Part shown: one piece after another, positions 1 through 30,497 of the stretch
How positions within the stretch are numbered: the stretch's first letter is position 1
How the letters are laid out: each line of letters opens with the position of its first letter
Assembly: GCF_032362555.1 (NCBI RefSeq)
Contig: NC_083532.1
Span: forward strand, 3,051,001-3,115,000
DNA from: Amyelois transitella
Taxonomy: Eukaryota > Arthropoda > Insecta > Lepidoptera > Pyralidae
Direction: 5' to 3'
DNA length: 64,000 bases
Notes under the pieces: generated by a model
What the model was told of the DNA's origin: nothing
Databases searched by the model: none
What the model saw: only the letters and a program-made list of their open reading frames with translations
Made by a program: the position numbers and the translations under genes

Positions 1-658
1 AGCATTTCTGCATACTTCAATAAAATCATTTATTGTTATTTTTGGCTTATGGACCCTTTCTATATCTAATTTAGGATTAAAATCTCCAAGCGATAATCTT
101 TTTCTACTAATATTATTCAAACCCTCACAGTATAAAGATATTAACTTATAAAAACTCTTGATAGTAAGGACTATTTGTTGAGAATCTTGTTTCAATGTAT
201 GATTTGCATCTATAACTTCAGATGGACCTATAAGTATTGATTGTGGCTGTTTATTTTGACCAGTCATTAATTTTGATTGTTCTTTGCACAAATCAACCGG
301 TAAAGGTTCACTAGCAGTTTCTATACTTCCTGTTCCTGTTACTATTTCTAATTCACGTGATGTTTCCATTAAATATGGTTCAGGGCTCAGACTTAAACGT
401 AAAGTATTAAAAGCTGGTGCCATTATTCTTGTTGCTTCTACCTCTTTTATGACGTCACCTCCTTCTTTTTTGGCACAAACGAAATAATCGGGGCACTCGC
501 ATAAATTTTTAACAGTCTTTGAACCATTTCTCATTTTGTTCAATGTTACTTTCATTCTATGCGATTCTTCTCTAGTGATCTCTTCTAGTTCCCCTTGGAT
601 GTAGTTTATGGTTGCTTGTGTCTTTGGTACAATTATTTGATTGATGATATTCTGACGT
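1..658 (-). CDS. Vha36-like: Gene A last exon: subunit D C-terminal helix plus novel tail (runs off window)
   Basis: The acceptor is gtcgacag at 666-659, phase 2. The reading frame is open from 658 to position 1. It begins KRQNIINQIIVPKTQATINY and continues to ELEEITREESHRMK, matching the last helix of V-ATPase subunit D (family pattern: NRRVNA...IIPR...TLAYI...ELDE.EREE..R.K). Canonical subunit D ends about 45 residues after this helix, whereas this protein runs on for at least another 170. The tail has a C.CPDYFVC cysteine pair and ends in the window with ITINDFIEVC, resembling the SIE.F...C signature of the repeats in gene B's 24621-26820 exon. There is no ATG at the exon start, as expected for an internal coding exon. 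The remaining tail and the stop lie outside the window. Confidence 0.85.
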
Positions 659-879
659 CTGTCGACAATTAATTGTAAAATTAGTATTTAGGCGATTTGT
701 AGATATTGCTTTAAAATATAAGCTGAAGCCTTAGCCAGTTATCAAGTGGTTTCTTTAGATATATCAATGAAAGGTTCTGTCATAGGTTCTGAGTATGTTG
801 TCAATGTTTTTGATTTGTGTTCTCGATCGATCCTCTATTTATTGTGTGTATGAATGTTAATCAATATATGGAGCCAGGA

Positions 880-1050
880 TCCTTAGGAATAAACAAACTT
901 GGAATTCTTCTTGTAGACGATGGCCAAGTAACCTGTCACTATTTGAATCTCAATTCCATTATAAAGCCCTACAGCTGAAAGTGGCCTTTCGGTCTTTTCA
1001 AGACTTTTAACTCCGCAAGGGATAAAGACGTAATAATATGTATGTATGTA
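880..1050 (+). mobile_element. SINE-1, head-truncated
   Basis: It retains the tail two-thirds (acttggga..cttct, cctgtcactatttgaatctc, ccgcaagggataaagacg) and ends in an ATGT run. It lies in the intron between the last two exons of gene A, antisense to the gene. Confidence 0.75.
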
Positions 1051-1091
1051 TCCTTAGCAGAAAGAGACCTACTAATAAGAAAATAACCAAC

Positions 1092-1252
1092 TTCGTAGCA
1101 CTCCTGTACGCGGCTTCTACTTGGAGGAAATTCGTCCTCAATTCGATCATCTTAATGTGGGTCTTCAGCAAGTTAGACCACGCCTTCTTGGCCTCTTGTA
1201 TCGTCTGACCACCTCTGGACAAGAACGGGCACGTCCGTTTGTTGTTTGGTAC
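1092..1252 (-). CDS. Vha36-like: Gene A exon: subunit D middle helix
   Basis: The acceptor is ctctgacag (to 1253), phase 0. The donor is the weak AA|gttggt at 1091-1086, phase 2. The 161 nt encode VPNNKRTCPFLSRGGQTIQE followed by AKKAWSNLL, then KMIELRTNF and EAAYRSATK. This aligns with gene B exon 21378-21535 (GNGGETIEEAKKFW, KMVELRRNF, ETAHKTATK) and with the family's LARGG..L..LK....A..LL.ELASLQTSF segment. The conserved GG(Q/E) and the spacing to the last helix are kept. The non-consensus donor may mean poor splicing, but the phase matches the next exon exactly. Confidence 0.82.
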
Positions 1253-1756
1253 CTGTCAGAGTATAAAGTACTCATTAATCTATACTTATATTTTAAAGCT
1301 GGAGAGTTTGTTAGTTTGTGTGAACACGTTAATCTCAGGATCAAATTATCTGGATCTGGTTTAAATTAAGACATTATTGATGCGTTAAATGTACCATTTA
1401 CCAAGGAAGGCTTTAGGCTATTCTAAAAGGAGCAAAGAAATAATTGAATATGTGAAAAAAAAAACGGGGAAAGTTATTCATCCTTGAGGGCTATTCTAAC
1501 TATTCCACGCGGACGAAGTCGCGGGCACAGCTAGTATACTATATAGGCTTCGTAACTTGGGATTCTTCTTAGGCGATGGGCCTTTTTTTGATGGCGATTT
1601 GAGTGCAACCAAAAGAAATATTCAGAGGTATTCAAAATAGAAAATACTATCTCCAAAATTTCAATTCCATCACAAGTCATCCATCTAAACGTGGCCTCCG
1701 AATCTTGTCACTATTTGGAATAAAGTGATTCTTGTGTGTGTATCAAAGTAAACAAA
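1253..1756. repeat. Decayed interspersed repeats in gene A intron
   Basis: Holds an old repeat beginning near 1300, a GC-rich end signature (ccacgcggacgaagtcgcgg, about 1504-1523, also seen at 13640, 34845 and 59850) and scraps of SINE-1 (1545-1590). I found no exon here. Confidence 0.5.
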
Positions 1757-2007
1757 CATACATACATATATATATGTCTTTATCCCTCGTGAAGTAGACA
1801 GAGACAGCAATCTTGAAAACATGGAAAGGCCACGTACGGCTTAATGATAGAATTGAGATTCAAATAGTGACAGGTTGCTAGCCCATCGCCTAAAAGAGGA
1901 ATCCCAAGTTTATAAGCCTATCCCTTAGTCGCCTTTTACTACATCCATGGGAAAGGGATGGAGTGGTCCTATTCTTTTTTGTAGTGGTGCCGGGAACCAC
2001 ACGGCAC
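1757..2007 (-). mobile_element. SINE-1, near full length
   Basis: A reversed copy: the ATGT-type tail is at the left and the hairpin head (ccgggaaccacacggcac) at the right, ending at 2007. It is in the same orientation as gene A. Confidence 0.85.
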
Positions 2008-2488
2008 ATCTTCATATTGCGTATGAAATATAAGATTTATTTAGCTTTACAATGCGCAGAGAATTACGGGCAATGCAAGACGACTACACAACACTACATA
2101 GTTCAAGTACAAAATGGAATCTCGGTAATTTTATTTTAAGTAATCCAATTTCTATATGAATGTATGTGGGCCGGGCCAATAATGGTCCAAATACGTCATA
2201 TATAATTTACTTCAAAAAACATCTGTGTTAACAATTTTGTTTATACGATAAATTTTATATTTATATAGATAGGTATAGGCTTTTTTTTTTCCTGTGGGTA
2301 GTTGCAGGCAAAACATTAAAAAACAGCTGATCCTATATTTTAATTATTTAATATTTTATTTTTAATACTTTTAATTAGTTTTATACAACAACTAATACTA
2401 CAATCATTAAGTTAATGATATAATAAAAGGAATACCTGCACCCACCTGCCTGCCTTGTGGATAAATTTTCTTTTATTACACAAACGAA

Positions 2489-3310
2489 ATGGACACACAG
2501 CGAAATTTACAACTGGAGCAAGTCCAACAGACGCAGAGGCAACTGGAAACTTCATTAGCTTGTCGCATGGCAGAGTTTGAGAAGAGGCTTACTGCAGCAC
2601 CATCAGCAGATATAGGTCAGTTGCAACGGGAGTTCCGGGACTTCAAGGAGTGTGTTTATTCCATTTTTCAAAATTTGCAACAGCAAATAAAGGATTTAGG
2701 CTGCAGAGTGGACTCCTTGGAGATGAGAGGCCGACGGAAAGTGCTGATGCTAAATGGTGTCACGGAAGATCCCAATGAAAATATCAAGGTAATAGTGAGT
2801 GATCTTCTTGCTGATAAATTCAAGTTAACAGATTCAAGCGCACAAATAAAGATCTGTCACCGCATTGGAACCAGAAGGCCAGACCGAGCTCGTCCAGTAT
2901 TAGTGAGTCTCCGCTCTCAGAAGATGAAATCTGATATATGGAACCAGAAAACAGCACTAAAGGGTACCAAAATTAGTATTGCCGAATTTCTCACACACAC
3001 AAGGCAAAGCGTGTTCTTAGCGGCTCGACGACATTTCGGTATGAGGCACTGTTGGACTCTCGATGGAGTTATCAATATTAAGATCCCAACTGGTGAGCGT
3101 GTTAAGATCGCAACCGAAGGTGAGCTAAATACTTTAATCAAGCGATTTCCAGGAGAGGACATATGCAGTGACCAGGGCTCGTCGACGACAGTAGACAAGC
3201 GTCCACCCCCAAAAAGAACGACCGCGGCTGTAGTCGATAAAAGGAATGTGACCCGACGGCAGACACAGGCGGTCAAATCTAAGTTGCCACCACCTCCGCA
3301 TACAAATTGA
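2489..3310 (+). CDS. LINE ORF1 protein (RNA-binding/chaperone type)
   Basis: 273 aa. Residues 1-80 are rich in Q, E, L and K with heptad character (a likely trimerising coiled coil). Residues 85-185 read RRKVLMLNGVTED, then ICHRIG and RPVLVSL, a pattern like the RRM-like domain of L1-type ORF1 proteins. The C-terminal 60 residues are basic and proline-rich (KRPPPKRTT, KLPPPPH), suited to nucleic-acid binding. There is no CCHC zinc knuckle or PHD finger. In this family the protein coats the element RNA as a ribonucleoprotein for target-primed reverse transcription. The stop lies 530 nt before ORF2. The domain call is by pattern only. Confidence 0.78.
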   Translation: MDTQRNLQLEQVQQTQRQLETSLACRMAEFEKRLTAAPSADIGQLQREFRDFKECVYSIFQNLQQQIKDLGCRVDSLEMRGRRKVLMLNGVTEDPNENIKVIVSDLLADKFKLTDSSAQIKICHRIGTRRPDRARPVLVSLRSQKMKSDIWNQKTALKGTKISIAEFLTHTRQSVFLAARRHFGMRHCWTLDGVINIKIPTGERVKIATEGELNTLIKRFPGEDICSDQGSSTTVDKRPPPKRTTAAVVDKRNVTRRQTQAVKSKLPPPPHTN

Positions 3311-3840
3311 GTCTGTTGGCCTCTTTCACTTCCACCTCCCTGTGTATGTTTTCACGCGGTGCTTATTAATTTTGTATTTCGTTGGTTGGTCCACTATATT
3401 TTGTTAAATGCGAGTGGGTAAATTCCTAGTTTTCTCTTAGTTACTGATGTAGTTTTGTTTGTTTTTCTTTTTTATCTGACAGCCGTCGTTTTCCTGTCTT
3501 AATGACAGGCGTCAGTTGTCAATTTTCTTTTTAAAGTAACCGTCATATACTTTGGAATGAATCCAATCGCTATAAAGCCCGCCATACACTCGAGACTTGT
3601 CTTTTGGTGTGTACATAATATTTTTTTTTTGTTTCATATTTGAGTTTCTTTATTTTTCTTTGTCTGCTTGTGTCATAGACCTTATAATAAAATTTGTATT
3701 TGTATCAGTTATCAGGTCCGGCCGGCAGGTTGTGCAGGAACAGACTTAAAACTACACCCTACATACATAATATATTAATATATATATTTTTATAATTTGA
3801 TTATTTATTATATTTAAATTAACCTATTTATATATATACA

Positions 3841-6786
3841 ATGCAGCAATGTGATAATATTTTTTTATCCGAAACCTTCTGCTCTGCTGAGGGATCTGGT
3901 GACTCAAGTTTTGTTTCCTGTGATTCTACAATGACCTTGGGGGCTTTTGTTGATAATACATTCCACAATTTTCCATATAATTTTAATGTGTGTCATATCA
4001 ATGCACAAAGCATTCCTGCGCATTACACAGACTTCATTGAAACGTTTTCTTCCGTGCACCTTGGCGCAATTCTTGTGTCCGAAACCTGGTTGAAACCAAA
4101 TTTACCTTCGACTAGCTATTCGCTACCTGGCTTTATCTTAATACGAAACGATCGTGTCGGATCCCGGGGAGGCGGTGTTGCCATTTATTTAAGAAGTGAT
4201 ATACATTACCGTGTGCTCGCTATGTCACCTTCTGAATACACCGCCAGCAGCGAATATATATTTCTTGAGGTCTCGTTTAAGGGAGTCGGAGCCGCTTTGG
4301 GAGTATTCTATTGCCCCTCTTCACATATTAATTATTTCAGTGCTTTTGAATCTCTCCTTGAGTCGGTTTCTCCAGATTACACACACCATCTGATCCTAGG
4401 AGATTTCAATACGTGTCTGATGAAGGATGACTCCAGGGCCAAAAAGCTGCGGGGTATTGTCAAGTCGGTCAATTTCTCAATCTTACCATCCGGTTCAACA
4501 CACTTCACAGAACATGGTCCCTCTTTGCTTGACTTGATCATTACCTCTTCAGCTGGTCTTGTTGCCAATCATGGTCAAGCGCCCGCTCCTGAATTCTCTC
4601 ATCACGATCTTATTTACGTTTCCTATAAAATTAAAGTTCCAAGACCAAAACCAACCATAATGAAACTCCGTTGCCTTTCCAAAATAAATAATGATGCTCT
4701 TACATCTGATGCAGCTAGGATAGATTGGTCTCCGGTTTTGTCGGCTAATGCAGTGGATGAAAAAATTGCTAGTTTTAATAATGAAGTATTAACACTGTAC
4801 GATAAACATGCTCCCGTACGTGCCATCAAAATAAAGCGCCCTCCTGCACCATGGATCACGGAGGCGGTACGTATCGCCATGAGAAAACGAAATCGTGTTT
4901 TTAGAAAGTTTAAACGGGATCGTACTAACGAAAATTGGTGCTTATATAAGGCTGCAAGGAATCTCTGCAATAGATTTTGTAGAAATGCAAAACGCCAATA
5001 TTTCTCCGACAACATAGAAAATGTTTCTCCAGCTAATATGTGGAAATTTCTTAATTCTCAGGGTATAGGTAAAGTACAGAAATCATGTTCAAAATTCCCT
5101 TTCACTTTGAATGAGCTTAACAATCATTTTTCCTCAGTTCCTCTTTTAGATGAAAATACAAAATTAGCTTCGATCTCTTCCATTCTTGCTTTGCCTTCTC
5201 CCGACGGTAGGCCATTTGAATTCTCAGCTGTCACTGAAGACGACGTATACAAAATCATTCATTCCATCTCCTCTAATGCCGTTGGTCCAGATCAAATAAG
5301 TCGTGTGATGTTAATTCCAATCCTCTCTTATATCCTCCCTATCATCACCCATATTATTAATAACAGTTTCTCAGAAAATCGCTTTCCTCTATCATGGCTT
5401 ATGGCCTATGTACGCCCTCTCCCAAAAATCCCAGATCCAACTCATTTGAATGAAGTACGTCCTATCTCCATACTTTCATTCTTATCGAAGGTTCTAGAAG
5501 CATCTGCCTTTAACCAGTTATCAAAACATCTGCTTGATAACCACCTTTTAAACAAATATCAATCTGGTTTAAGGCCGGCGCATAGTACCACCACTGCACT
5601 TCTTCGAGTTACAGAAGACATTAGAACGGGCATGGAACATAAACAAGTCACAATATTAGTATTAATAGACTTTAGTAACGCATTTAATACTGTTGACATT
5701 GATATCCTTTTAGCCACCCTTTCCCGTTGCAACGTCTCTTCTTCAGTGATTTCTTGGTTCTCCAGTTATCTTCATGGACGCCGGCAACAGGTTCGTAACG
5801 GTACGGATGAATCAGACTGGTGCGAATTGAAAGCTGGCGTCCCACAAGGCGGTATTTTGTCTCCTATTTTGTTCTCAGTTTTCATAAACTTGCTTTCATT
5901 ATATATTAACTGTTTCTATCATTTCTATGCTGACGACTTGCAGCTTTATGTACAGACGAATATTGATAACATGGAACAGGCCATTGATTTGCTGAATCAT
6001 AACTTAAATAGAGTTCTAGACTGGTCTAATCGATTTGGCATTTCTGTTAATGTTAAAAAGTGTCAGGCTATAGTAGTTGGCAGTTTCTATCAGATTAATA
6101 ATATTGACATTAACACCTTGCCACCGCTGATCTTTGACGGAACTATTATTGAATTTAGTACGACGGTTAAAAACCTTGGCCTACATATTGATACCAACTT
6201 ACATTGGGATTCACACGTTGTTGCAACCAGTCGGAAAGTTTACAGTGTTCTGCATTATCTGCAACGCTTAAAACATTTTCTTCCAACAAAGACGAAGATT
6301 ATGCTTACCCAAGCACTTCTTCTGCCTATAATTGATTATGCTGATGTGTGTTATCTGGATTTAACTGAAGAGCATCTCAACAAATTAGAACGTCTTCTAA
6401 ACAATTGTATTAGGTTTATATTCTGCCTTCGGAAGTACGATCATATTTCTGAATACCGTTCTCAGCTAAATTGGCTCCCCATCCGTAACCGTAGAAATCT
6501 TCACATTTTATGTCAGCTCTATACCATTCTCAACAATCAGCTTGCCCCAGACTATCTTAAAAAAGACTTCCAACTATTAAGTTCTACTCACGAAAAAATC
6601 CTTCGTTCTTCAAATAAGTTAACTCTTGCTATCCCTTTTCACCGTACAGGTATTGCCTCCAATTCTTTCGCCGTTATGGCTGTTAGGCTCTGGAATTCAC
6701 TTCCCGAGTCCATCAGGACATCCCCAAGTCGTTCTAGTTTCAAATCGCGGGTAAACGGGTTTTTCCTGAGTCGCGAGGGTATTTAA
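3841..6786 (+). CDS. LINE ORF2: AP-type endonuclease and reverse transcriptase
   Basis: 981 aa, no internal stops. The N-terminal endonuclease (about 45-265) shows the NAQSI start, SETWL, GGVAIYLRSD, LILGDFN, LLDLIITSS and FSHHDLIYV catalytic blocks. The reverse transcriptase (about 480-760) shows RPISILSFLSKVLE, QSGLRPAHSTTTALL, LIDFSNAFNTVD, GVPQGGILSPILFSVFIN and the active-site FYADDLQLY, then VKNLGLHID. The C-terminal region contains AVRLWNSLPESIR, common in CR1/L2-type elements. No RNase H or restriction-type endonuclease domain is seen. All catalytic motifs appear intact. The CR1-group assignment rests on motif style and the 3' tail; the exact clade (CR1, L2, Crack, Daphne, Kiri) is open. 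Confidence 0.9.
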   Translation: MQQCDNIFLSETFCSAEGSGDSSFVSCDSTMTLGAFVDNTFHNFPYNFNVCHINAQSIPAHYTDFIETFSSVHLGAILVSETWLKPNLPSTSYSLPGFILIRNDRVGSRGGGVAIYLRSDIHYRVLAMSPSEYTASSEYIFLEVSFKGVGAALGVFYCPSSHINYFSAFESLLESVSPDYTHHLILGDFNTCLMKDDSRAKKLRGIVKSVNFSILPSGSTHFTEHGPSLLDLIITSSAGLVANHGQAPAPEFSHHDLIYVSYKIKVPRPKPTIMKLRCLSKINNDALTSDAARIDWSPVLSANAVDEKIASFNNEVLTLYDKHAPVRAIKIKRPPAPWITEAVRIAMRKRNRVFRKFKRDRTNENWCLYKAARNLCNRFCRNAKRQYFSDNIENVSPANMWKFLNSQGIGKVQKSCSKFPFTLNELNNHFSSVPLLDENTKLASISSILALPSPDGRPFEFSAVTEDDVYKIIHSISSNAVGPDQISRVMLIPILSYILPIITHIINNSFSENRFPLSWLMAYVRPLPKIPDPTHLNEVRPISILSFLSKVLEASAFNQLSKHLLDNHLLNKYQSGLRPAHSTTTALLRVTEDIRTGMEHKQVTILVLIDFSNAFNTVDIDILLATLSRCNVSSSVISWFSSYLHGRRQQVRNGTDESDWCELKAGVPQGGILSPILFSVFINLLSLYINCFYHFYADDLQLYVQTNIDNMEQAIDLLNHNLNRVLDWSNRFGISVNVKKCQAIVVGSFYQINNIDINTLPPLIFDGTIIEFSTTVKNLGLHIDTNLHWDSHVVATSRKVYSVLHYLQRLKHFLPTKTKIMLTQALLLPIIDYADVCYLDLTEEHLNKLERLLNNCIRFIFCLRKYDHISEYRSQLNWLPIRNRRNLHILCQLYTILNNQLAPDYLKKDFQLLSSTHEKILRSSNKLTLAIPFHRTGIASNSFAVMAVRLWNSLPESIRTSPSRSSFKSRVNGFFLSREGI

Positions 6787-7122
6787 TATCGCCTTTTCAC
6801 TCATTTCGGTAATCACTGCACCTATTTATTTATGTATATTGTTTATCTATTGTAGTTTTTATGTATGTATATTGTTTATCTATTGTATTTTTTATGTATG
6901 TATATTATAATTATTTTATTTTATATTTTGTGTAGGTATAAATATATTTATTTAGTTTAACCCCACATGAAGTTCTCTGTAAGACCCAATGGTTGACTGG
7001 TAGATAATGCTTCTAGCATTAAGTCCGCCAATTGTGCTATACATTTGTATCTTGTGCAATGAAGTTTAAATAAATAAATAAAAATAAATATAGTATTGTT
7101 ATATTTCGTCATTTCACCATCT

Positions 7123-7139
7123 GCCTCCGTGGCGCAATT

Positions 7140-7179
<40 letters not shown>

Positions 7180-7196
7180 GATCCCACCCGGGGGCG
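7123..7196 (+). tRNA. tRNA-Asn (GTT)
   Basis: 74 nt folding as a full cloverleaf. The acceptor arm pairs GCCTCCG with CGGGGGC; the D arm is GCGC/GCGC; the anticodon arm is TTCGG-CTGTTAA-CCGAA with anticodon GTT; the T arm is GGTGG-TTCGATC-CCACC. Box A and box B are intact. A T6 run about 8 nt after the gene is a good Pol III terminator. It sits in the gene A intron after exon 7531-7639, on the opposite strand to gene A. Confidence 0.95.
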
Positions 7197-7530
7197 ACAC
7201 AGTTTTTTACAAGTTGATAGGAGTCTTCTACTTTATATTTTTAACCACCATATTAAAAAATTACACGGTTTTTTTTGTGGATTTTTTTTTATGGATTTAA
7301 TGATGAATTAGGCGGGAATGTAGGTATGGCTGCGTTTCATGAAAATCGGTCGAATTAACTGCCGCTTCATAATGTCGGTCTTTATATTTACGACTCCCTT
7401 ATTAAGGATATCAAATAAAAGGGTAAATAGTAGTATGTATACCTACACTGCAACAAAATCTTGGTTTTTTTAAATTTTTTACAGAAATAAAAAAAAATTG
7501 TTTTATTTATTTGACCTGAAAAATACTTAC

Positions 7531-7639
7531 AGATTTAACTTCTTCAATGACAGTTTTGTAAAAATCTTGATTGAAATAGCGACAGCGTGCTAACAGAAGG
7601 TAGGCCTCTCTTGTTTGATTAGCAAAGTTTTTGTATACA
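7531..7639 (-). CDS. Vha36-like: Gene A exon: subunit D ARCRYF helix
   Basis: A strong acceptor (ttttttttgcag, to 7640) and a consensus donor (gtaagt at 7530-7525) bound 109 nt, phase 2 to 0. The exon encodes VYKNFANQTREAYLLLARCR, then YFNQDFYKTVIEEVKS. Gene B exon 16872-16983 reads AYGSFAEVMKEAFILLARCR and YFFPELNKIVTED, and canonical subunit D has GEVM.EAAFSLAEAKF..GDF. The shared LLARCRYF, which replaces the family's SLAEAKF, marks genes A and B as sister paralogs. Splice-site quality and uninterrupted frame argue against a pseudogene. Confidence 0.88.
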
Positions 7640-7686
7640 CTGCAAAAAAAACAATACACTATTTAGTCATTCTGTGGTTTTATTTC

Positions 7687-7922
7687 ATACATACATACAT
7701 AAAATCACGCCTCTTTCCCGGAGGGGTAGGCAGAGACTACCTCTTTCCACTTGCCACGATCTCTGCATACTTCCTTTGCTTCATCCACATTTATAACTCT
7801 CTTCATACAAGCTCGGCGGTTTCGGTTACTTTTGACCTGACCCTTTACCAGGACGTCCTTAATTTGATCAAGATACGTTCGTCTAGGTCTTCCCACTCCG
7901 ACCTTTCCCTCCACACTCTCAC
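7687..7922 (-). mobile_element. RTE LINE, 5'-truncated 3' end
   Basis: A reversed (ATGT)n tail, then the last ~69 codons of the RTE ORF still open on the minus strand (CRDRGKWKEVVSAYPSGKEA at the end, stop at 7705). It corresponds to 42360-42600 of the intact RTE and lies just upstream of exon 7531-7639. Confidence 0.85.
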
Positions 7923-7999
7923 TTTATTTCATAAGAACGTAATTTTTTTCAATATTTTTTTTGAGAGCAATTTGAGCAAATTTACAACGTGTAGCGGGA

Positions 8000-8215
8000 A
8001 TGGTCGTAGTGGGAAGGCCTAAACTAACGTACGTATCTAGATCAAATTAAAGACGTCCTGGCAAAGGGTGAGGTTAAGAGTACCCGAAACCGCCGAGCTT
8101 GCATGAAGTGAGTTATGAATGTGGATGAAGCGAAATAAGTAGGAATGCAGAGATCGTGGCAAGTGGAAAGATGCATTCCCAGCCCTTTGGGAAAGAGGCT
8201 CGTATGTATGTATGG
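8000..8215 (+). mobile_element. RTE LINE, 5'-truncated and mutated
   Basis: Matches the RTE 3' end from gtgggaaggcctaaactaac to a short ATGT tail. It has more substitutions and stops than the 7687 copy, so it is older. The two copies lie tail-outward, in inverted orientation, in one intron. Confidence 0.75.
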
Positions 8216-8227
8216 TTTTTTTTTACT

Positions 8228-8673: not shown

Positions 8674-8851
8674 CTCTGCAGTTCAGCCGATATCTTCCTC
8701 AACTCATCACCAGTACTGCAGCTGTTCCACTTCATCATCTCCCGGCCGAGGTACGCGACACTGAGTTTGTTCCTCATCTGTTGAAGCTGAAGAAGAGTTG
8801 GCAGAGTGGAGAATGGAGCTGCGCAGTGGCAGAGTTCTAGTTCTTCTGAAT
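8674..8851 (-). CDS. Vha36-like: Gene A exon: subunit D N-terminal helix
   Basis: Acceptor aaatgtag (to 8852), phase 1; donor AG|gttagc (8673-8668), phase 2; 178 nt, open. It reads LQLQQMRNKLSVAYLGREMM, KWNSCSTGDELRKISAELQ. Gene B exon 16308-16479 has LAQMRTRLHMCYLGRKLMKW and TGAELRKLSAEIQ. The order L..M...L......G...MK is that of the first subunit D helix (PSR..L..MK.RL..A..G..LLK.K), although the basic LLKKK stretch of true subunit D is mostly lost. No methionine begins the exon; it is preceded by an acceptor and its phase needs an upstream exon, so the start codon lies further right and is not identified. Confidence 0.82.
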
Positions 8852-15134: not shown

Positions 15135-15648
15135 GACGGATATGGTCAACGGAAGGATGAATTGAAGCGATTCTAAAGACATTAACATTGTCAACGGTTT
15201 ACTCAAAAATTCTTATGAAACTTCTTAGTTCCAAAAACAAAGATTGACATTTAATAGATGAAAGCATTTTGATATGGCGTTTACAAAACATTAAAATGGA
15301 TTTCGTAAACAGTAATTATAAAGAAGAACCCTACAAAATAACTTGTTAAAATGAAAGTTTTTACAAAAATCTGATATATAATGACGATGAAAAATATGTG
15401 ATGAAACTAAACAAGTAATTAATACACAATACTCATTAAAATGTAGGGCTATGTCTATAAGTGGACTCAAAAATTTACAAACACAAAATAATTTCCGTAA
15501 TCAAGAATGTTTGCAGATGACGATGGTACGTGGATTTCGTTTACCTTATTGCATAGGTCAGGTCAACAGTACCCTAGATTGACGAGCTAGCATGAAGAGA
15601 GTGATAAATATGGATAAAGCGAAAGATGTATGCAGGGATTACAATAGC
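15135..15648. other. Unassigned, with an RTE scrap
   Basis: 15560-15650 contains a weathered RTE 3' end (caggtcaacagtaccctag, gcatgaagagagtgataaat). Nothing else was recognised. Confidence 0.4.
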
Positions 15649-16307: not shown

Positions 16308-16479
16308 ATGCAGAGGAGTCGGCCCTGGGTGCCCAAAGATACCCGGTCATGCCGTCCCTGGTGTCTCTGGCACAAATGCGGACCAGACTCCACATGTGCT
16401 ACCTGGGAAGGAAGCTGATGAAGTGGACCAGCCTCGCGACGGGAGCCGAGTTGAGGAAGCTATCGGCTGAGATACAAAT
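16308..16479 (+). CDS. Vha36-like: Gene B exon: subunit D N-terminal helix
   Basis: Acceptor ccgttatag (to 16307), phase 1; donor AT|gttagt, phase 2; 172 nt. It reads AEESALGAQRYPVMPSLVSL, AQMRTRLHMCYLGRKLMKWT, TGAELRKLSAEIQ. P.MPS..SL..MR.RL corresponds to the FPSR..L..MK.RL opening of subunit D, and YLGRKLMK to the G..LLK block. The frame upstream of the acceptor hits a stop within the SINE-1 tail, with no in-frame ATG, so this is not the first coding exon. Codons are GC-rich relative to the surroundings, as in gene A's equivalent exon. It is squeezed between a SINE-1 tail 25 nt upstream and a SINE-3 about 20 nt downstream. Confidence 0.85.
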
Positions 16480-16499: not shown

Positions 16500-16737
16500 C
16501 GGTGACGGCCTCTGTGGCGCAGCGGTAGTACGCTTGTCTGTGACACCGGAGGTCCCGGGTTCGAATCCCGGCCAGGGCATGATGAGAAAAGAACTTTTTC
16601 TGATTGGCCTGGGTTTTGGATGTTTATCTATATAAGTATTTATTGTAAAATATTATAGTATCGTTGAGTTAGTATCTCGTAACACAAGTCTCGAACTTAC
16701 TTCGAGGCTAACTCAATCCGTGTAATTTATTCTATAA
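16500..16737 (+). mobile_element. SINE-3 (tRNA-derived)
   Basis: The head (gcctctgtggcgcagcggta, then box-B-like ggttcgaatcc) looks like a tRNA gene, but the anticodon arm does not fold and a long unrelated body follows (ccagggcatgatgagaaaag, tgtttatctatataagtatt). A related copy is at 35461-35635. It begins just after the preceding donor. Confidence 0.75.
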
Positions 16738-17170: not shown

Positions 17171-17565
17171 GTCACCGGAAAATAACAAGAATGTCAAGTT
17201 TATAAATTTCCAAAAACGTTTATAAACTTTCGTAGGGTTTTAAACGAGACGTGAATCATCATATTTTAGAAGTCCATATTTATTAAATTTTAAATTGATA
17301 ATCTTAAAGATTAAACTTACGCGTAAAATAATAAATATCCAAATGACATGTGCGCTCCGATTGGTTGAATAAGTCACGTGTTCCATTACTTTTTTCCAAT
17401 ACTAGATTGCACAAAAGTACTGATAAGTAAAAAATATTATTATATAATAAGTTTGAAATATTATAATATAAAATAATTATATTTAATAGGAGTTTAAAAG
17501 AGTAAAAAAACTTGTGCTAAAAATATTGTTAAAAAATAAATAAAAATATTTATAAAAAAGTTGGT

Positions 17566-17582
17566 CGCCCCCGGGTGGGATC

Positions 17583-17622
<40 letters not shown>

Positions 17623-17639
17623 AATTGCGCCACGGAGGC
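17566..17639 (-). tRNA. tRNA-Asn (GTT)
   Basis: Identical in the 74-nt body to the gene at 7123-7196, on the minus strand. A T6 run follows its 3' end (at about 17560-17555). It lies about 580 nt after gene B exon 16872-16983, antisense to gene B, the same relative place and orientation as the copy in gene A. Confidence 0.95.
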
Positions 17640-18143
17640 AGATGGGTTAGTTGACGAAAAATAGCACTAGTTTGCGATATAAATAGATAAATGGTCTACG
17701 TACATATGTACGTATGTAGGTATAATTATCAGTACATATTAAAATGTTAACTCCTTACATATGAAAAATAATAATACGTCTAGTTATTATAACAGTTCCA
17801 AGAAGTGGGAATTCAGTATGTTAAATAAATATGTAAAATTGTTCTTAATTAATAATTTATTTATTATAAATAAATAAATAATAAATTAATTAATAAAGTA
17901 TTAGGTAGTTCAAATATTCTACATACACATCTATATTCTTCGCGGGGTAGACAGAGCCAACTTGATAAACTAAATGGCATTGACGTAAAAACATACAACA
18001 GGATAATACAATATAATAATTGTATGACGCACCTTATGAAAAAGCATACTTGCACAAATATTGATTTAAGTGTATATTCTTTAGAGTTATATATAGGTAT
18101 TTATGTCTTTAAATACTACATTTTGTGCACTACTTTTGCGTCG
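17640..18143. other. No clear feature
   Basis: AT-rich, with a reversed SINE-1 scrap at about 17938-17980 (cgcggggtagacagagccaa). Confidence 0.4.
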
Positions 18144-18835: not shown

Positions 18836-18934
18836 TTTTTCCAGTGAACAAAATCATTTTTTTTTTCTATTTTTTTTTAAAGGTTTAACTATGTCTTTAG
18901 AAATGTATCTATTTTTTGACAATTGTCACCATCT

Positions 18935-18951
18935 GCCTCCGTGGCGCAATT

Positions 18952-18991
<40 letters not shown>

Positions 18992-19008
18992 GAGCCCACC
19001 CGGGGGCG
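18935..19008 (+). tRNA. tRNA-Asn (GTT), second gene B copy
   Basis: Same sequence as the other two except one T-loop base (ttcgagc for ttcgatc), which keeps box B usable. It is followed by a T6 terminator about 8 nt downstream. The flank catctgcctccg is shared with the other copies, so they arose by DNA duplication. Confidence 0.93.
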
Positions 19009-19023
19009 ACGTACTTTTTTAGC

Positions 19024-19628: not shown

Positions 19629-19700
19629 GCGAGCATAACAGTAGCGACCACGATGAGAACAGTAGCTGGTGTCAAACTTATACAATACAGTATAGTTGAG
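19629..19700 (+). CDS. Vha36-like: Gene B exon: subunit D NVAGV segment
   Basis: Acceptor ttttcccctcag, donor GAG|gtgagt; 72 nt, phase 0 to 0. It encodes ASITVATTMRTVAGVKLIQY then SIVE. It matches the AQ(I/V)K(I/V)R.KKDNVAGVTLP.FE stretch of subunit D, keeping VAGV. The equivalent exon in gene A was not found. Confidence 0.88.
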
Positions 19701-21377: not shown

Positions 21378-21535
21378 GAGAGAGAGGCATACGACTATTT
21401 AGGTATTGGCAATGGCGGAGAAACAATAGAAGAAGCTAAAAAGTTTTGGATTGAGCTACTGAAGTTGAACATCAAGATGGTGGAGCTGAGAAGGAATTTC
21501 ATTATAGTTGAGACTGCTCATAAGACGGCGACCAA
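21378..21535 (+). CDS. Vha36-like: Gene B exon: subunit D middle helix, with the shared phase-2 donor
   Basis: Acceptor gaaactttacag, donor AA|gtaagt; 158 nt, phase 0 to 2. It encodes EREAYDYLGIGNGGETIEEA, KKFWIELLKLNIKMVELRRN, FIIVETAHKTAT. It corresponds to the YEL.GLARGG..L..LK....A..LL.ELASLQTSFVTLDE segment of subunit D; the GG pair and helix pattern are kept but the RGG arginine is lost. All three later exons complete its split last codon (AA|G, Lys). Confidence 0.9.
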
Positions 21536-21891: not shown

Positions 21892-22024
21892 TTCATTCAT
21901 TTATATAATCACGTCTATATCTCTTGCGGGGTAGACAGAGACAGCAGTCTTGAAAGACTGACAGGCCACGTTCAGCTGTTAGGCATAATGATGGAATTGA
22001 TATTAAAATAGGTTGCTAGCCTAG
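21892..22024 (-). mobile_element. SINE-1 tail half, second member of the pair
   Basis: A reversed tail and part of the body; ends ataggttgctagcctaggtc, where the duplicated flank begins. Confidence 0.75.
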
Positions 22025-22342
22025 GTCCGTCTAGTCTGTTGAAAAGTTGAATTCAACCTTTTCGGGAAAATAGCAACCAGGACGAAAGCTCAGGTTGATG
22101 ATTAAAAGTTACTTGGTGAAATTGGGCATGCGCAAATGAGACTTGGAGAATTCCAAGGCAAGAGTGAATAGGCACTATTTGAGCTCGCCTGCATCACCTT
22201 AGGCCTCATCTTACTTATCACCAGGCAGATTGAGGGCAAGCTCACTCTAATCTATCATAAAAATAAAATAACATAACCATCAGAAGACGAGCGAAATCGG
22301 TAAATGGCTTAACAACTTAATTTATTTTCTCTGTACATTTAT
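22025..22342. other. Unclassified, probably repeat-derived
   Basis: cttacttatcaccaggcaga resembles a dispersed repeat end. No ORF or exon was found. Confidence 0.35.
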
Positions 22343-22472
22343 ACATATGTAAAAAACTCATCTTTCCCGGAAGGGTAGACAGAAACCATATTTTTCCACT
22401 TGCCACGATCCCTGCATACTTCGTTCGCTTCATCTACATTCATAACTTTCTTCATGCAAGCTCGTCGTTATC
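22343..22472 (-). mobile_element. RTE LINE, 5'-truncated
   Basis: A reversed RTE 3' end (ctttcccggaagggtagaca, cttgccacgatccctgcata), missing anything beyond about 130 bp. Confidence 0.8.
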
Positions 22473-23236
22473 TTTATCTGTATTTCTGACAATTTAAAGA
22501 TATATTACATAATTGTATCCTCAGCACTAACTTCTGATAATTCTGAATTGTGATATTTCGCTTTATGTAATAATTTAAAATTACTGTGATATCATATTCT
22601 TAAAAATATATTTAACACTAGGTTGTTACACTCTTGGTTGTAGATGTAGTTAATATTCAAAAACGGTTGACGAACTCTGTACCTCAATTCGGAGTTAAAT
22701 AATGTAGCTCTCATGTGCGCAGACCCAATTTTTTTGTAGTAGAAGTTCCTATAATTCAAATTAAAACGTCCTTAGAAGGACCAAGCTGCCGATGAACTCA
22801 CCCTTTCGCTAAGGACTGAACGGAAAAATTATAAAATATACATTAAGATTATTTGATTTTGGGACATAAATTTTATATGATAAATGATTGGACTAATGGT
22901 TCTAAATAAAATTAACTATTGCTTTAGAAATTATTATAATTAAATAACACACCTAACGTTGATACTTGAAAGTTAATTACGTGTTTCAATCAAGTTAAAA
23001 TTATTAAAAAAGAAAAATTATAACAGAAATTTCAATACATCATAAAAGGTTTAGGTTTAAAATCTGCCCAATTATATTATACGCTAATCTTATTACATGC
23101 TAATATTTAAGCTCATAGCAATATAATAATAATCATGCCAATTATAAAAGGGAATAACAAATAAATAATAACAAATTAATCTCACAAATATAAAATAAAC
23201 AAGATAAAGAGTTCATCGTCAGCAAGGCTTATGTAA
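22473..23236. other. AT-rich, no recognised feature
   Basis: Intron 4 sequence of gene B without repeats I can name. Confidence 0.4.
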
Positions 23237-23407
23237 ATGAAAATAAAAAGAAGAAATTTACAGAGACCAGACGAAGACTTTGACCTTCTTATTTCTTCAT
23301 TCGATAATCTTTTTGCTACAAGAAGAGACCAAGAATATATGAGAAGAGAACAAAATCAAACCGTACAGTCCTTACAAAGGGAGGAATCGGCAGTTTGGAT
23401 GCACTAA
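23237..23407 (+). CDS. Unidentified small ORF, 56 aa
   Basis: ATG at 23237, TAA at 23405. It starts MKIKRRNLQRPDEDFDLLIS and continues through SFDNLF and RRDQEYMRREQNQ, with a charged, helical composition. I do not recognise it. It ends 28 nt before the acceptor of exon 23436, so it is either a chance or relic ORF in intron 4 or part of an alternative transcript. It does not resemble subunit D, and its frame cannot join the phase-2 donor at its own atttacag site without hitting a stop. Confidence 0.25.
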   Translation: MKIKRRNLQRPDEDFDLLISSFDNLFATRRDQEYMRREQNQTVQSLQREESAVWMH

Positions 23408-23435
23408 CGAACTAAACTACACAATATTTCGACAG

Positions 23436-24462
23436 GAAACACAACGTGCTCAAGAAATTATTGATACCGAAGACAAAAGCGACCATAGTATTTATAAAAA
23501 CCGAAATCGATGAAAGAGAAAGAGAGGAGCACTACAGAATGAAAATGATTCAAATGAAAAAGAAACTGGCATTAAATAAAAAGAGTTGCAATATATGTAA
23601 AAAAATATTACAAGATTTAATAACTAAGAATTGCGTTGTGTGCGGTATCCCATTAAATAAACCACTGCCTCCACCACAGCCGCCTCCCCCGGATCACGAG
23701 ACAATGGTGACGATGAAGGAAGAGCTGAATTACATTATCGATTTATCAAGAAAAATGGAAACAAAATCGGGCAGCATTGAAAACTTTATGAAAGACGCTG
23801 AAATAATCAAAATGAAGTTAGAAGAACGAACAGTTCCATCACCAATACCTTCAAATATATCCGCTGATAAATTATGCAAAGTTTGTAGTCACAGACAGAA
23901 TGTGGAACGCGCGAACAAACCATCACCAGAACCATCAGTTATTGCAGATGAAACTTCACCACATGACGATGAAGAATATTTAGGAACGATTATAACAGAC
24001 GTTGAAGTGATAACACGATTATTAAAAACAGTTAATGACGATGGAACAGTGTCGGAACAAAGAAGGGTGATAAGACGGAAAAGAGAAATCAATTCTAATC
24101 CTGGAAGATCAACTCACAACTTGGGATCTGTAAATCATAACGTATTAACAGCTATACCTCAAGACATTTCAAGGTTATCATTGAAATCAGAAATAACCAG
24201 GCGCAAAGATACGTTGTCTGACCCAAAAGAAAAATGCTGCGTGTCCTGTATAAATTTTCATAATGACATGTCCTGTGAATCGTATTCCATGGAAGAAAGT
24301 TGTAGTTCGGTAGTTTGTGAAAATAACATGCTCAGTATTGTAATAAGAAGCGATGATGACACCAGAAATCTCCACACGGATAGTGAAGATTCCATATCAC
24401 TTATTTCTGAGTTAACAGAATCGGAAAGAGAATTATTTTGTATCAAAAATAAAAATCGTTGA
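23436..24462 (+). CDS. Vha36-like: Gene B last exon 1: subunit D C-terminal helix and 300-aa tail
   Basis: The acceptor is tatttcgacag, phase 2, and no ATG is needed. It begins KKHNVLKKLLIPKTKATIVF, then KTEIDEREREEHYRMKMIQM; the DEREREE run is a hallmark of subunit D's last helix. The tail has a CNIC...CVVC pair followed by PPPQPPPP, one copy of the new repeat (MKEELNYIIDLSRKM..SIENFM), CKVC, an NDDGTVSEQRRVIRRKREI motif and CCVSC. It ends TGA at 24460. A polyadenylation variant ATTAAA lies at 24578. Of the three last exons it is closest to canonical subunit D in helix sequence and shortest in tail. Confidence 0.88.
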
Positions 24463-24620
24463 GATCAAATTTAGGTATACATTATGTATTTAACGCATGA
24501 AATATTATAAGTAAGTTTTAAATAATATGACAGAATCATATGAGTCCAAAATGGCAAAGGGTGATACGGCAGCTTGTATTAAAAAAACAAAATTGTTACA
24601 AAGATGTATTTTGTTGGCAG

Positions 24621-26820
24621 GCGATTAAACGTCTTAAACAAAATTGTCATACCGAGAACAAAAGCAACAATCGCTTACATCACATTAGAATTAGAAGAAA
24701 TGGAAAGAGAAGGAAAGCACAGGATCAAAAAAGTGCAAGATAATAAGAGAAAGAAGAATCAGAAGGATGCAAGGAAAAAACAAGTGAAACCATGTCCGAT
24801 ATGTAAACAAGAAACAGAAGTACCCACAGATAAAAGTGGAAAACCTGCGCCTGTAACTAAAATAGTCCCCGAGCCAGTGGTGATCCCTCCACCACTTTCA
24901 ACTCCAACACCACAACCACCGTTAATTACACACGAATCGTATATAGATAAGCCATCTGAGTTAATAGCTGTGCATCAACCTTTATTAGAATCATTGCAGC
25001 CATCGCGAAAAGATTTATATAAACCAATATGTTCTACTGAGAAACCATGCAAAGACGCTAGTGCTGCTTCCACGCCGTTCCATCTATCTCTTGGAGATAT
25101 AAGTGCTGAGTCTAAACTAAAACATTTGAAACAAATGCTAAAAGACACTATTACTCTAGGGCAAGACGTCGCGAAATCCAATACTATGAATATGGATGAG
25201 TTTTTAAATCTCTGTAAAGATGCTCATAACACTTTAGATATTCTTGATAAAAAAGATAATGTACCTCAAATTGATTCCAACTTAGAAATAAATTTAGAAC
25301 ATTTAAAATGTCATATACGGGAAGTTCTTGATGTATCAAGAGAGCTAAGAGATGTAACGTTTCTGTCACCAAGCATCGAGAATTTTATCCACAACTGTGA
25401 AAATGTCGATAAAAAAATTAAAATTGCTATTAAAAATATAGCACCTGCTCAATTAGATGATAATGCAAAAATGTTATCATTAAAGTTGAAAGATGAAATT
25501 GACGATATTTTGAAAGTTATTGCTGCGTATAAAGAAGAAGGATTACTTACGGATAGTGTCGAAAAATTTTCAAAAGTTTGTAATGAAACTAAATCTAAAC
25601 TTAAATGTTATACTGATGAATCTGCTTTAGACTCAGAATATAATAAAATAGATCACTTAAAAAGCCACGTCAATAAATTAGAAGAAATTTCTACAGATAT
25701 TAAAAGAGATGGCGTTAGGTCGACTAGTATAGAAAAATTTATATCGTCATGTAAAGATTTTAAAATGAAATTAGATAAACAGGAAACGGAACAAGCGGCT
25801 GATAATGAACAGATCGTGAAGTTAATAGATCAAATTAATGACGCCGTAAATGCAACAAGAGAAGCTAAAGAAGGAGGCTTAATAACAGAAAGTGCACAAG
25901 ATTTCATAAATTCTTGTGAAACATTTAAATCACAACTAGTCTCTAGAACTCAACATGCTCCAAAACCAATACAGAAACTTCAAAGTGACATCGACGGAGT
26001 AATGCAATTGATAAGTAATTTACAAGCTCAAGGGTTGATATCGGCTAGTATGGCGGACTTCTTGAGGAGCTGCGAGGAAACTAAGAGAAAGCAAGATTTC
26101 GATAGAAATTATCCCCTTTGTCCAGAAAGTAATCTAATATTATCTCCTACATGTGGCGAGTTGTGTACATGTCAATCGGCTGAAGGTCAAGAGTTATGCG
26201 AAAACTGTCAAGAAATGTACGATGAAGTTAAAAGATCAAATTCATTTCCTATTCCTTGCAATACTTGTTCTGGAACTGAAGTCGATAATACCAAGCTTAA
26301 TGTACTAGACGTTCCTTGTGATAGTTGCTTGCAGTTAGATTTGGAAGAAACTGACTGTACTGAGTGCAACAATGCGCAGGAAGTTAGTGAAGATGTGGAA
26401 ATTGCAGGGAACCTTGGCCTGTTTGAAAAGAAGGTTAGGACAATAACAAAAATAAAACGCTATAGGACAAAAGATGGAGATATAAGAGAAGAAAGGGAAG
26501 TGACAACGATCAAAAAAGTAAAACATGATCCGAATGAAACAGATATAGACCACGATGATCTATCCTGTGATTCTTTTGAAGTTGGATTGTGTATAACACC
26601 AAAACAAAATCAAATGGGGTTCAGAAAATTGGCAAAACATTCGAAATCTGAACAAATCTTGAGAGTTTCCTCTTTAAATAGTCCTCGTTTTAGACAAAGT
26701 TTATCTTTTAACCCACAAGTTCTTTCTGTAAGAAATCCATCCCAAATTTTGTTTTTAGCTGATACTGCTGAAAAGTTATCAACAACTAGTTTGTGTTTGT
26801 GTCCCAATTTCATTTTATAA
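24621..26820 (+). CDS. Vha36-like: Gene B last exon 2: subunit D helix, six-repeat domain, CxxC tail
   Basis: The acceptor is ttttgttggcag, phase 2; the ATG at 24604 lies in the intron and is probably not used. It starts KRLNVLNKIVIPRTKATIAY and ITLELEEMEREGKHRIKKVQ, again the subunit D C-terminal helix (II.PR...TLAYI..ELDE.EREE..R.KK.Q). Next come CPIC and a proline-rich linker. Six 45-50 aa repeats follow (about 25110-26100), each two helices with a signature like SIE.FI..C. Then four CxxC pairs (CENC, CNTC, CDSC, CTEC; 26190-26370) and a KIKRYRTKDGDIREEREVTT motif shared with the other last exons. TAA at 26818. The repeats look helical and are not a family I know. Confidence 0.88.
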
Positions 26821-26905
26821 TCTTTATTCGAATTTAAATAGTTTACCACTACGACCGTGTTTTATTTTTAATATTTACTGTTTTTTTTACAACAAAATTA
26901 ATTAA

Positions 26906-26929
26906 AATAAAAATAAAAGACGAAATAAA
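26906..26929 (+). promoter_or_regulatory. Polyadenylation signals after last exon 2
   Basis: AATAAA occurs at 26906, 26912 and 26924, about 90 nt after the stop and before the next acceptor. Confidence 0.6.
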
Positions 26930-27004
26930 AGCGTAAGGGTGAGTAAAGTCTTTGAATGATTTGAATTTTCAATTATTTAAATATTTAAATTTTTGTATTT
27001 ACAG

Positions 27005-30000
27005 GAAATATGAGAAGAATAATTTGTTACACATGCACAAAAAGGTTAGAATCGTTTTTGATGAAAATATGCCAATAAATCTAACGCTGCATTTATCAAA
27101 AATGTATAACATAAAAGATCAAAACATTTTCAGAAGTTCCCTTGTCGCAATTAACAGTAGAAAAGAAATCGTTGAAAACAGATATGTACATATTACACCT
27201 GATACAAAGTTTAATAGTGCAACTATGTTACAAAGTATATATAGACAAATATCCGTAGGAAATAAAAAGAAGCTGACAAATCTCACATTATGTACAAATA
27301 CAGGTAAACTTTACTGTAAAAATAAAGGATTTAATAGTACAGAGATATTTATCAAAAGTAGTGGAGATCAAATGAAAAAAGAAAATGTGCATAAATTACG
27401 TCAAAAGTATCCTAAAGAAAGAAAGCGCAATGAATATTTTAAATCGTATGAAAATCCTTTTGATATAGGAGAAGTAGTGTCGTCAGTTTCATATGCACGA
27501 ATCGGTGATAATTCATCTACGTATATTATCATGATGTTAACACATTGTGATTTTAATAATAATGATGGTGCATCAAATACACCTTCTAGAACAGGTGATG
27601 CATCAAGAAAGTCATCAAATACCAATCTCCAAATACGCGCTTCTTCACATTCATCCCTCAATTCAAATATTGATGACTCTTCACATAAAGCATTTGGTTT
27701 GAATCCAAATGAAATTGACATTAAGAAATCAATCAAAATAAAGAAAAAAATGAATGATGATGGTACTATGACTATATCAAAACGGATCACAACTGTCAGA
27801 ACCCAAACAATAAATTCTAAAACTGCTGAAAAAGATGACGAAAAAAAGGCTCATTCATGTTGTACACTGTTAAATTTATCTAACGAACAAAACAAAAACA
27901 TTGCAAAGAAGTCAACACAAGTTACCATACAGGGTGACTCACAGGAAAAAACATGCCAAACAACATCGTTACAATCAGTCATTTGCAGCCAACCTGGGTC
28001 CAGTTATGAGCGCTTTTCTCTTACCTCAGCTACGTCGAAACAATGTAGTAGCCACGGACAAAAAGAAGAACAAAGTAAACAAACAAGTAATGTAGCAACA
28101 TGTTCACGTAAAGACCAATGTTGTTCTACCACTGATTTAAACTGTTGTTTACCTACGAAACCAGTACAACATAACTCTGCTCCAGCCATTCAAAATGAGC
28201 CTTCAAACAAAGAAAATAAAGACGAAGACCAAGGAAAGAGTCGTAGTTGTTGCAGTATAAAAATTATTCTAAAACCAATTGAACAATCTTCGGTTTCATG
28301 TCCAAAATGTAACAAAGAAAGTGCAGAAAAGTCTGGTTGCCCATACTGTGAAGAGGACGAAAACTCCGAGGATTCGGCGGAAACATGTTCGTGTTGTAAT
28401 AAGAAAACAAAAGAGTCCCAAAGTGTATGTTCATGTAAGGCAAAAGAAACGAATTCTAAAAGTTTGTGTTCATGTCATAAGGCTAAAGCAAAACAATCAA
28501 AAGGTTCATGTCCCTGTAAGGCTGACGAGAAACCAAAACAAAACATATGTTCGTGTAAGGCAAAAGAGACTGATTCTAAGAGTTTGTGCGCACTCTGTAA
28601 GACTAAAGTTGAGCAATCGAAAAGTTCATGTTCCTGCAAGGCTAAACAAAAGCAATCCCAAACTTCATGTTCCTGTAAGTCCGAAGAAAAGAAATCTCAA
28701 AGCCTTTGTTCACAATGTAAGGCTAAATCAAAACAGTCTCAGTCTTCATGTTCGTGTAAGGCCAAAGAAAATAAAAGTAACAATTTGTGCTCACAATGTA
28801 AGGCTAAAGAGATGGCAAAAACACAAAATTCCAATACAAGCCCTAAATGTAAAGACAATGATACTAATACATTGAATTTGAAACGGAATCTTGTTTCATG
28901 TCCGAAATGTAAAGAAAAAGAAAAAGCTTTGAATCAATCTTCTAATAAATGTCCAAAATGTCAGGAAAAAGAAAAGAATAAAACAGAATTGCCAAAATCA
29001 AAGTCTTTATGTCCAAACTGCCAAAGGAATTTAACGAAAAACACGATTGATTCTGACACAGCTAAGAAAGATTCGAAAGTTGGGAAAGATAAAAATATGT
29101 ACGGAGGGTTTTCTTTTGAAAATAATCTAAATGAGAAAAAGAATAAATGTGAATGTTCTTCTAAAGCAAAACAAAAGGAAAACAAACCAACTGTTAATCA
29201 ATCGAAGTGTCCTAAATGCAAAGGAAATGAAACTACCAAGAAAGCCAATTACGGTGGATTTGCTTTTGAAAATAATCTTTACGAGTCAAAAAACAAATGC
29301 TCATGCTCAAAACAAAGTAAAAATAAGGAAACTGATCAAACAGGATGTCCTACTTGTAAGAATATAAATAAAACTGCCAACGAGGAGAAGCCATCTATGG
29401 CATGTAAATCAACGCAAGCAACAGACATTATAGAACTGAAAAAATCTTGTTGTAATTTAGATACAAAACCTACTGTCACAATAATTCCGTCGTCAGAATC
29501 AGTGTGCACGGCTTGCCAAACAGATAATAAACCAGAGTGCCCAATGTCATCAAGAACCAGTAATGTAAATGATTCGAATAAAAAAAGCTCTGCACTTTCT
29601 AACCAATCTTGTAAAATATGTCAGACAAATTCAGAGCACAAAACACCACCAAAGACTACTAACAGTAGAAATTTAAAAACTAAGAAAAAATGCCCTATTT
29701 GCTCAGCAGAAAAAAGTGCTTCTTTTGCTGATGTAAATGAGAAACAGGCTAGAAGAGAACCTCCCAAGCACAAATGTGTTTTTCCCGATCCGTTGAACGA
29801 AAAGAAGAAAAAGTTATGTCCAATGTGTTCACAAGAAAAATGCGCATCAGTTTTTGATTACACTAAACCAAAAAGGAAAGAGCCGCCAAAACACAAATGT
29901 GATTTAGAAGAAAATATAGGAGAAAAGGAATCGTGTCCATTATGCTCAGCTGAGACTCAGAAGAAACCTGCTAAATATCCCATTTGCGAGAAGGATAAGA

Positions 30001-30497
30001 CTTCAAAAAAAGCACAAACGACTGAATCATTTTGCAAAGAGTGCGCAGTTAAAATTGCTGTTGCCAAATATTTGGCTGGAGCTGGCCAAAAACAGAATAC
30101 AGATAAAAGTACAAACACATCTTGTACTGTTTGCAATAAAGAGGATCAATTGAAAATCTGTAAATTTGAGAAGGAAATTAAATCATCAGTTTACGCAGAT
30201 GCATCAGACGCCTCATGTTGCAGCAATGGCAATAAAAAATCTAATACCAGTTGCCCTGTGTGTCCTGAACCAAAAATTAGTAGTCCGTCCAGTAAAACCA
30301 ATGCTGATCAAGGGAAAATTAGTCAATGTACCAGTTGTCCTAAAATGAAGGATGCTTCCACCAGTACGTCGCCATCAAATAGGTATGACGTGAGGACCCT
30401 TAGTAATTTTTCAGCGCCGACAAAGCGTAAACCAAAATCTTGTACTTGTAAGTCTGACACATATTTATTGCTATGTAATACTAAGTCGTGTAAATGA
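27005..30497 (+). CDS. Vha36-like: Gene B last exon 3: very cysteine-rich 1,160-aa extension
   Basis: Acceptor tttttgtatttacag, phase 2. The open frame also reaches an ATG at 26952 inside the intron, so a separate gene is possible. The start (RKYEKNNLLHMHKKVRIVFD) resembles the subunit D helix only faintly (LL....K...IVF). Residues after ~250 carry KKMNDDGTMTISKRITTVRT, the motif also present in the other two last exons, which is the best evidence of common origin. From ~28280 the protein is packed with CxC/CxxC motifs: about ten CSCKAKE(S)-type units, two YGGF(S/A)FENNL units and two CPxCSxEK..REPPKHKC units. It ends SCTCKSDTYLLLCNTKSCK, TGA. This could bind zinc or form disulphide-cross-linked structure such as sperm-tail material; both are guesses. 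Confidence 0.8.

Follow-up and report, generated by a model that had tools for sequence, protein, structure and literature searches.

A lepidopteran gene with a V-ATPase subunit D-like head and a last exon probably chosen from three tandem units

What is a V-ATPase subunit D doing with a tail of hundreds of residues? The question is posed by a stretch of 64,000 nucleotides from the moth Amyelois transitella (NC_083532.1, positions 3,051,001 to 3,115,000, or C28:3051001-3115000 in the 327 Mb, 33-contig assembly searched; hereafter, the window). An earlier note had recognized here, on opposite strands, two paralogs of subunit D with very long tails, and ATP-synt_D matches confirm the kinship with D for both genes. 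The best overall explanation, to which we assign a probability of roughly 0.55, is a D gene with swappable tails whose predicted product has been neofunctionalized. As far as sequence and public annotation can tell, the architecture in many Lepidoptera is very probably that of constant 5' exons encoding most of subunit D, joined to a last exon chosen from three tandem units. The constant exons of the plus-strand gene in the window are as follows:

15507..15525, plus strand: exon 1, encoding MFADDD and the first base of D, phase 1
16308..16479, plus strand: exon A, encoding the D N-terminal helix
16872..16983, plus strand: exon B, encoding EVMKEAF...LLARCRYF
19629..19700, plus strand: exon C, the hairpin exon (TVAGVKL), phase 0-0; top of the exon C scan with a score of 70
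21378..21535, plus strand: exon D, encoding the GG motif and a helix; ends in phase 2 (TATK)

Exons A to D are bounded by GT/AG junctions with consistent phases, so that the matching splice phases claimed earlier hold for them, exon 1 being an addition; in the minus-strand gene, they hold for exons A, B, D, and E. Exon 1 is the sole candidate with three acidic codons on the plus strand between 8.8 and 16.3 kb, and the N-termini of relatives read M-x-x-DDDD or similar. The hidden Markov model search proposed beforehand as a check on the joined exons gives strong matches to Pfam ATP-synt_D over residues 20-210 (5.6e-32 for the form ending in E1 and 1.1e-33 for that ending in E2, both above the cut-off), which cover nearly the full profile (positions 2-195 of 196). 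The E2 protein finds its best annotated match in a protein of Plodia interpunctella, with 61% identity over 100% of the length, and chance joining of the plus-strand open reading frames is rejected on this ground. The wider suspicion, that unrelated frames were joined by eye or that the genes are pseudogenes, is highly improbable: it draws on the minus-strand copy, with no detected exon 1 or exon C and with a change of frame, and is refuted for the plus-strand gene by the identity to Plodia, the Pfam match of the E2 form, and relatives in 27 species.

The earlier note had assumed one tail per gene. Downstream of exon D, however, the plus-strand gene has three related terminal exons, long open stretches each with an acceptor entered in phase 2:

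23436..24462, plus strand: E1, terminal exon with the D C-terminal helix and a tail of ~300 residues
24621..26820, plus strand: E2, terminal exon with the D C-terminal helix, a linker, helical hairpin repeats, and a beta hairpin; tail of ~690 residues
27005..30497, plus strand: E3, terminal exon encoding a Lys/Ser/Cys-rich tail of 1,163 residues (90 Cys) without the D helix

With the hand-added exon 1, the predicted proteins comprise 519 (E1), 910 (E2), and 1,341 (E3) residues, and thus depart from the ~250 residues and short C-terminal end typical of D. On its own, the E3 stretch has no Pfam match at E 1; its end bears the conserved RYDVR...CTCKSD, and its first ~240 residues are predicted with less certainty. 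AATAAA or ATTAAA words occur once between E1 and E2, four times just past E2, and twice within 600 bases past E3. A common 5' part that splits at a single junction is found in annotated isoforms of Manduca, Plodia, and Ostrinia. Manduca X4, X2, and X1 share their first 179-180 residues, up to the exon D/E junction, and then each continue into a D helix and tail of their own; the pairs Plodia X2/X1 (177 residues) and Ostrinia X1/X2 (178) diverge at the same junction, Plodia X1 switching there to an E3-type tail like that of the window. Composite models (two D helices, E1-like then E2-like, in Pararge; an E1-like tail followed by an E2-like one, with a single helix detected, in Leptosia; an E2 and then an E3 part in Helicoverpa armigera) are consistent with the order E1-E2-E3 in the window. 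Each type of unit in the relatives brings its own copy of the D C-terminal helix together with a tail, so that splicing would swap half of the D coiled coil along with the tail.

When 39 helix copies are placed in a tree (48 columns), 15 E1-labelled rows (80/83), nine E2-type rows, including both minus-strand copies (83/92), and eight E3-type rows (94/72) each form a group that extends across several families. When the window tails are scored without the helix against class profiles, the sole match of the E1 tail is to the E1 profile (61 bits), that of the E3 tail to the E3 profile (45 bits), and that of the minus-strand tail to the E2 profile (69 bits); the four reversed controls give no match to any profile. 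The E2 tail scores 698 bits with the E2 profile, of which Plodia is part, and also matches the E1 (103 bits) and E3 (106 bits) profiles, so that the three tails, judged by these scores, are related to one another.

Several observations blur this division into classes. The tree leaves 21 of its 36 inner branches open, and none of the three class groups attains the starred support level. The window E1 (branch 2.39) and the second Pararge copy fall outside the class groups and join, weakly (58/0), canonical D and a short D paralog encoded on contig C15; three E3 rows (Dendrolimus, Chilo, and H. zea) likewise lie outside the E3 group. Leptidea sinapis X10 (P0028) belongs to E3 by the helix tree and to E2 by the tail profile (83 vs 27 bits), so that either terminal exons have been mixed or the model is a composite. 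On the E1 profile, the window E2 scores above the window E1 itself, which must therefore be very diverged. The isoforms, finally, are database gene models in which read support is not visible.

The predicted structure of Plodia P0001 (mean predicted local distance difference test, pLDDT, 61.7; predicted template modelling score, pTM, 0.34; head mostly >80 in pLDDT) contains the D head, a disordered linker, twelve helices (356-696), which look like six hairpins, and a beta hairpin (822-846). By eye, the latter falls on a motif resembling 'EI.KI.R..N.DGT..EE..VI'; a relaxed version of this pattern is present in 29 of 37 relatives (P0001 itself not among them) and in all three window forms, and has no match in the minus-strand copy. 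Both Manduca X2 and the window E2 show five repeats on direct reading. There are 45-133 cysteines in each of the nine E3-type tails counted, and an RYDVR-like motif lies 40-74 residues from the end in 12 of 37 relatives and in the window E3, followed in most by C.C. E2 appears to have expanded by helical-hairpin repeats and E3 by Cys-rich ones. The D helix is absent from E3 in the window, in Plodia, and in a Loxostege model (P0035), and the Plodia E3 form (P0007) matches the ATP-synt_D profile over positions 1-154 only.

Such tails invite the idea that the head now serves solely as a coiled coil for oligomerization or anchoring, in a structural protein of sperm that has no relation to the pump, with the Cys-rich E3 cross-linked into sperm accessory structures. 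The cysteines of the nine E3-type relatives, the repeat expansion, and the loss of the D helix from E3 in two moths fit it, whereas the helices are D-like in most isoforms and the main text of PMC11288676 contains no mention matching the terms sought for tailed D; we consider it unlikely.

Protein searches, each covering about 8,000 scored candidates at most, return at least 37 related proteins, all with precomputed PF01813, 35 of them with a species name (27 species) and two unnamed. The species are presumably all lepidopteran (Plodia alone is confirmed by look-up), and the expectation of orthologs in other Lepidoptera is thereby borne out. The searches bear on tailed forms only, because canonical D falls below the length limit for candidates, and they do not imply that tailed forms are absent outside Lepidoptera. 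The annotated lepidopteran models belong to the same family as the window gene (PF01813 on 37 of 37), but most of their names miss the D head: subunit D is named in three of the 37 (P0022, P0026, and P0032), others being called 'centromere-associated protein E-like', 'balbiani ring protein 3-like', 'uncharacterized', and so on, and no name shown mentions a choice of ending. Among the matches listed from the open-access full-text literature, which leaves subscription journals mostly outside, no paper on tailed D proteins was recognized. The supposed lack of any prior description thus stands for that literature, whereas the proteins are already in databases, in most cases with names that are empty or unrelated.

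Does the tailed protein still work as a rotor? The window gene resembles V-ATPase subunit D (ATP6V1D, Vha36-1, and yeast Vma8) in its head fold, full ATP-synt_D match, GG motif, and E/R/K pattern of the C-terminal helix; in a single-chain structure prediction, the head consists of two long helices and an intervening beta hairpin, matching the D fold. It differs in tails of ~300-1,160 residues, compared with some 30-40 residues beyond the aligned helix in canonical D, in the exchangeable last exon, and in its invariant residues. These were defined as the 105 positions at which the canonical D proteins of moth, rat, and citrus agree, so that three sequences set the standard. The plus-strand gene keeps 43 of them, the minus-strand gene 30, the C15 paralog 54, and the 25 relatives taken into the count (the other 12 of the 37 being left out) 34-49. 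Of the 105, 40 are kept in at most two of 24 tailed heads, and K35W, L33M, E71R, and K73R are found in all 24; among 60 columns conserved in 90% of these heads, 36 hold the canonical residue and 24 differ (one being an extra N-terminal Met). The mean number kept is 10.7 of 25 in the N-terminal part, 11.5 of 38 in the middle, and 19.9 of 42 in the C-terminal part (12, 19, and 23, respectively, in the C15 paralog), the middle of the head being the least kept region. In V1, the ends of D lie inside the A3B3 bearing, while its middle binds subunits F and d. Exon-by-exon genome searches show a single locus for each of F, d, and A, as against five for D, all of these being lower bounds. From the lost invariants, the poorly kept middle, and the single loci seen for the three other subunits, we infer that the D-derived protein has changed its work, a specialized rotor being the alternative.

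According to the preferred reading, the neofunctionalized product would still fold as D in its head, with ends better kept than the middle, and coupling of V1 to the V0 ring has most likely been lost. Rather tentatively, the D-like head might act as a docking stem on A3B3 or on a new partner and the tail as a scaffold or tether, probably in spermatogenic cells. Against a change of work stand the 26 canonical invariants, including GG and E/R/K residues of the C-terminal helix, that are kept in at least 90% of the 24 tailed heads, and the Pfam match, which spans the whole D profile and fits a working rotor as well; furthermore, the locus counts for F, d, A, and D are lower bounds, and the assignment of D regions to interfaces comes from general knowledge of V1.

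The possible site of action can be approached from known systems. Drosophila Vha36-2 and Vha36-3 are likewise insect D paralogs and, to our knowledge, carry no long tail. Excerpts of the relevant papers give a FlyAtlas signal for Vha36-2 of 716 in testis, compared with 45 for the whole fly and 0-3 for each of the nine remaining single tissues (PMC3734111), discuss testis-expressed V-ATPase duplicates in flies (PMC10452791), and report that the V-type ATPase complex is enriched among monarch sperm proteins (p = 9.90E-08; PMC5712127) and V-ATPase terms among eupyrene-biased sperm proteins of P. rapae (PMC13060016). A germline or sperm role of tailed D is thus suggested by circumstantial evidence.

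Insofar as these excerpts go, the enrichment in lepidopteran sperm would also suit a rotor isoform, whereby tailed D replaces canonical D in the sperm V-ATPase, the spliced helix and tail tune the shaft, and the tail, emerging at the top of A3B3, tethers or brakes the pump. The complete D fold, the conserved GG and C-helix residues, the helix classes common to several families, the eupyrene-biased proteins, and the testis-specific fly Vha36-2 are in its favor. Nevertheless, ~60% of the canonical invariants are changed in the plus-strand gene, several of them family-wide, the lower-bound searches showed F, d, and A at a single locus each, the E3 of the window and of Plodia has no C-terminal helix, and a long tail must exit the head; we consider working rotor isoforms unlikely. 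Still less probable is a set of three exchangeable half-shafts, in which splicing would pick an axle helix with a tail of 300 to >1,000 residues and sperm pumps would be tethered, braked, or parked in three ways.

Where did the tailed gene come from? The ATP-synt_D profile gives 11 matches in the whole genome, all above the cut-off, which correspond to five loci: the two window genes, a canonical multi-exon D gene on contig C14, its intronless copy on C16 (C16:10817001-10822000, L013), and the intact short paralog without a long tail (C15:8931001-8937000, L012). Five pieces of the C16 copy share 97.8-100% identity with C14 exons, and identity is 94.4% over a 700-column piece comprising the last exon and downstream sequence; the copy is apparently a recent retrocopy of canonical D. 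The C15 paralog, which could be the counterpart of fly Vha36-2 or -3, resembles the tailed gene, from which it differs in its lack of a long tail and its larger share of invariants, in two introns of the same position and phase by by-eye reading (phase 0 before 'A(S/N)..V' and phase 2 in the K/R codon preceding the last helix). The canonical C14 introns lie at other positions, as judged by eye from tblastn ends. Since two introns are common to C15 and the plus-strand gene and not to C14, the tailed gene seems to derive from an old short D paralog.

The minus-strand gene consists of the following parts:

8674..8851, minus strand: exon A, phase matching the plus-strand gene
7531..7639, minus strand: exon B, phase matching the plus-strand gene
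1092..1252, minus strand: exon D, phase matching the plus-strand gene
1..658, minus strand: terminal exon of E2 type, continuing past the window into L009, where the frame changes

Its joined protein matches ATP-synt_D (7.5e-21, profile positions 2-193) notwithstanding the undetected exon C. The earlier reconstruction, which followed D from the first to the last helix and included VAGV, is borne out only in part here: the scan for exon C (VAGV/hairpin) gives 26 at best, compared with 70 for the true plus-strand exon and a background of 29, and the candidate search for an acidic exon 1 found none. The open frame ends at ~4457 of L009 (reckoned by hand), and coding seems to resume in another frame near A runs, which may reflect a true frameshift, splicing, or an assembly error at an A run. 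The gene groups with Plodia P0009 (100/99), annotated from exon D onward only, inside the E2 class. It is an inverted duplicate of E2 type with parts missing, and may be decaying or encode a shortened protein.

A long interspersed nuclear element (LINE)-like element (2465-6786, plus strand; open frames of 281 and 987 residues, the latter endonuclease/reverse-transcriptase-like by eye) lies inside the minus-strand intron where exon C is expected. Within introns of both D genes, ARAGORN reports three tRNA-Asn and one tRNA-His (7122-7198, 16508-16579, 17562-17640, and 18934-19010), which could be genes or tRNA-derived repeats. Elsewhere in the window, another long open frame of 1,061 residues (39397-42582, plus strand) is endonuclease/reverse-transcriptase-like by eye, and the same weak translated matches recur at 56235-56516 and 63249-63529, ~7 kb apart, which suggests a direct repeat.

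The axle of a rotary motor is normally tightly constrained, and it is unusual for a conserved gene to exchange half of a D-type axle along with long tails. Such a gene would constitute a natural experiment on what such an axle tolerates and on how rotor parts are recruited for new work. Should the sperm role prove true, the tailed D proteins would open to testing the acidification machinery of eupyrene sperm, in which, according to the excerpts cited, V-ATPase terms are enriched.

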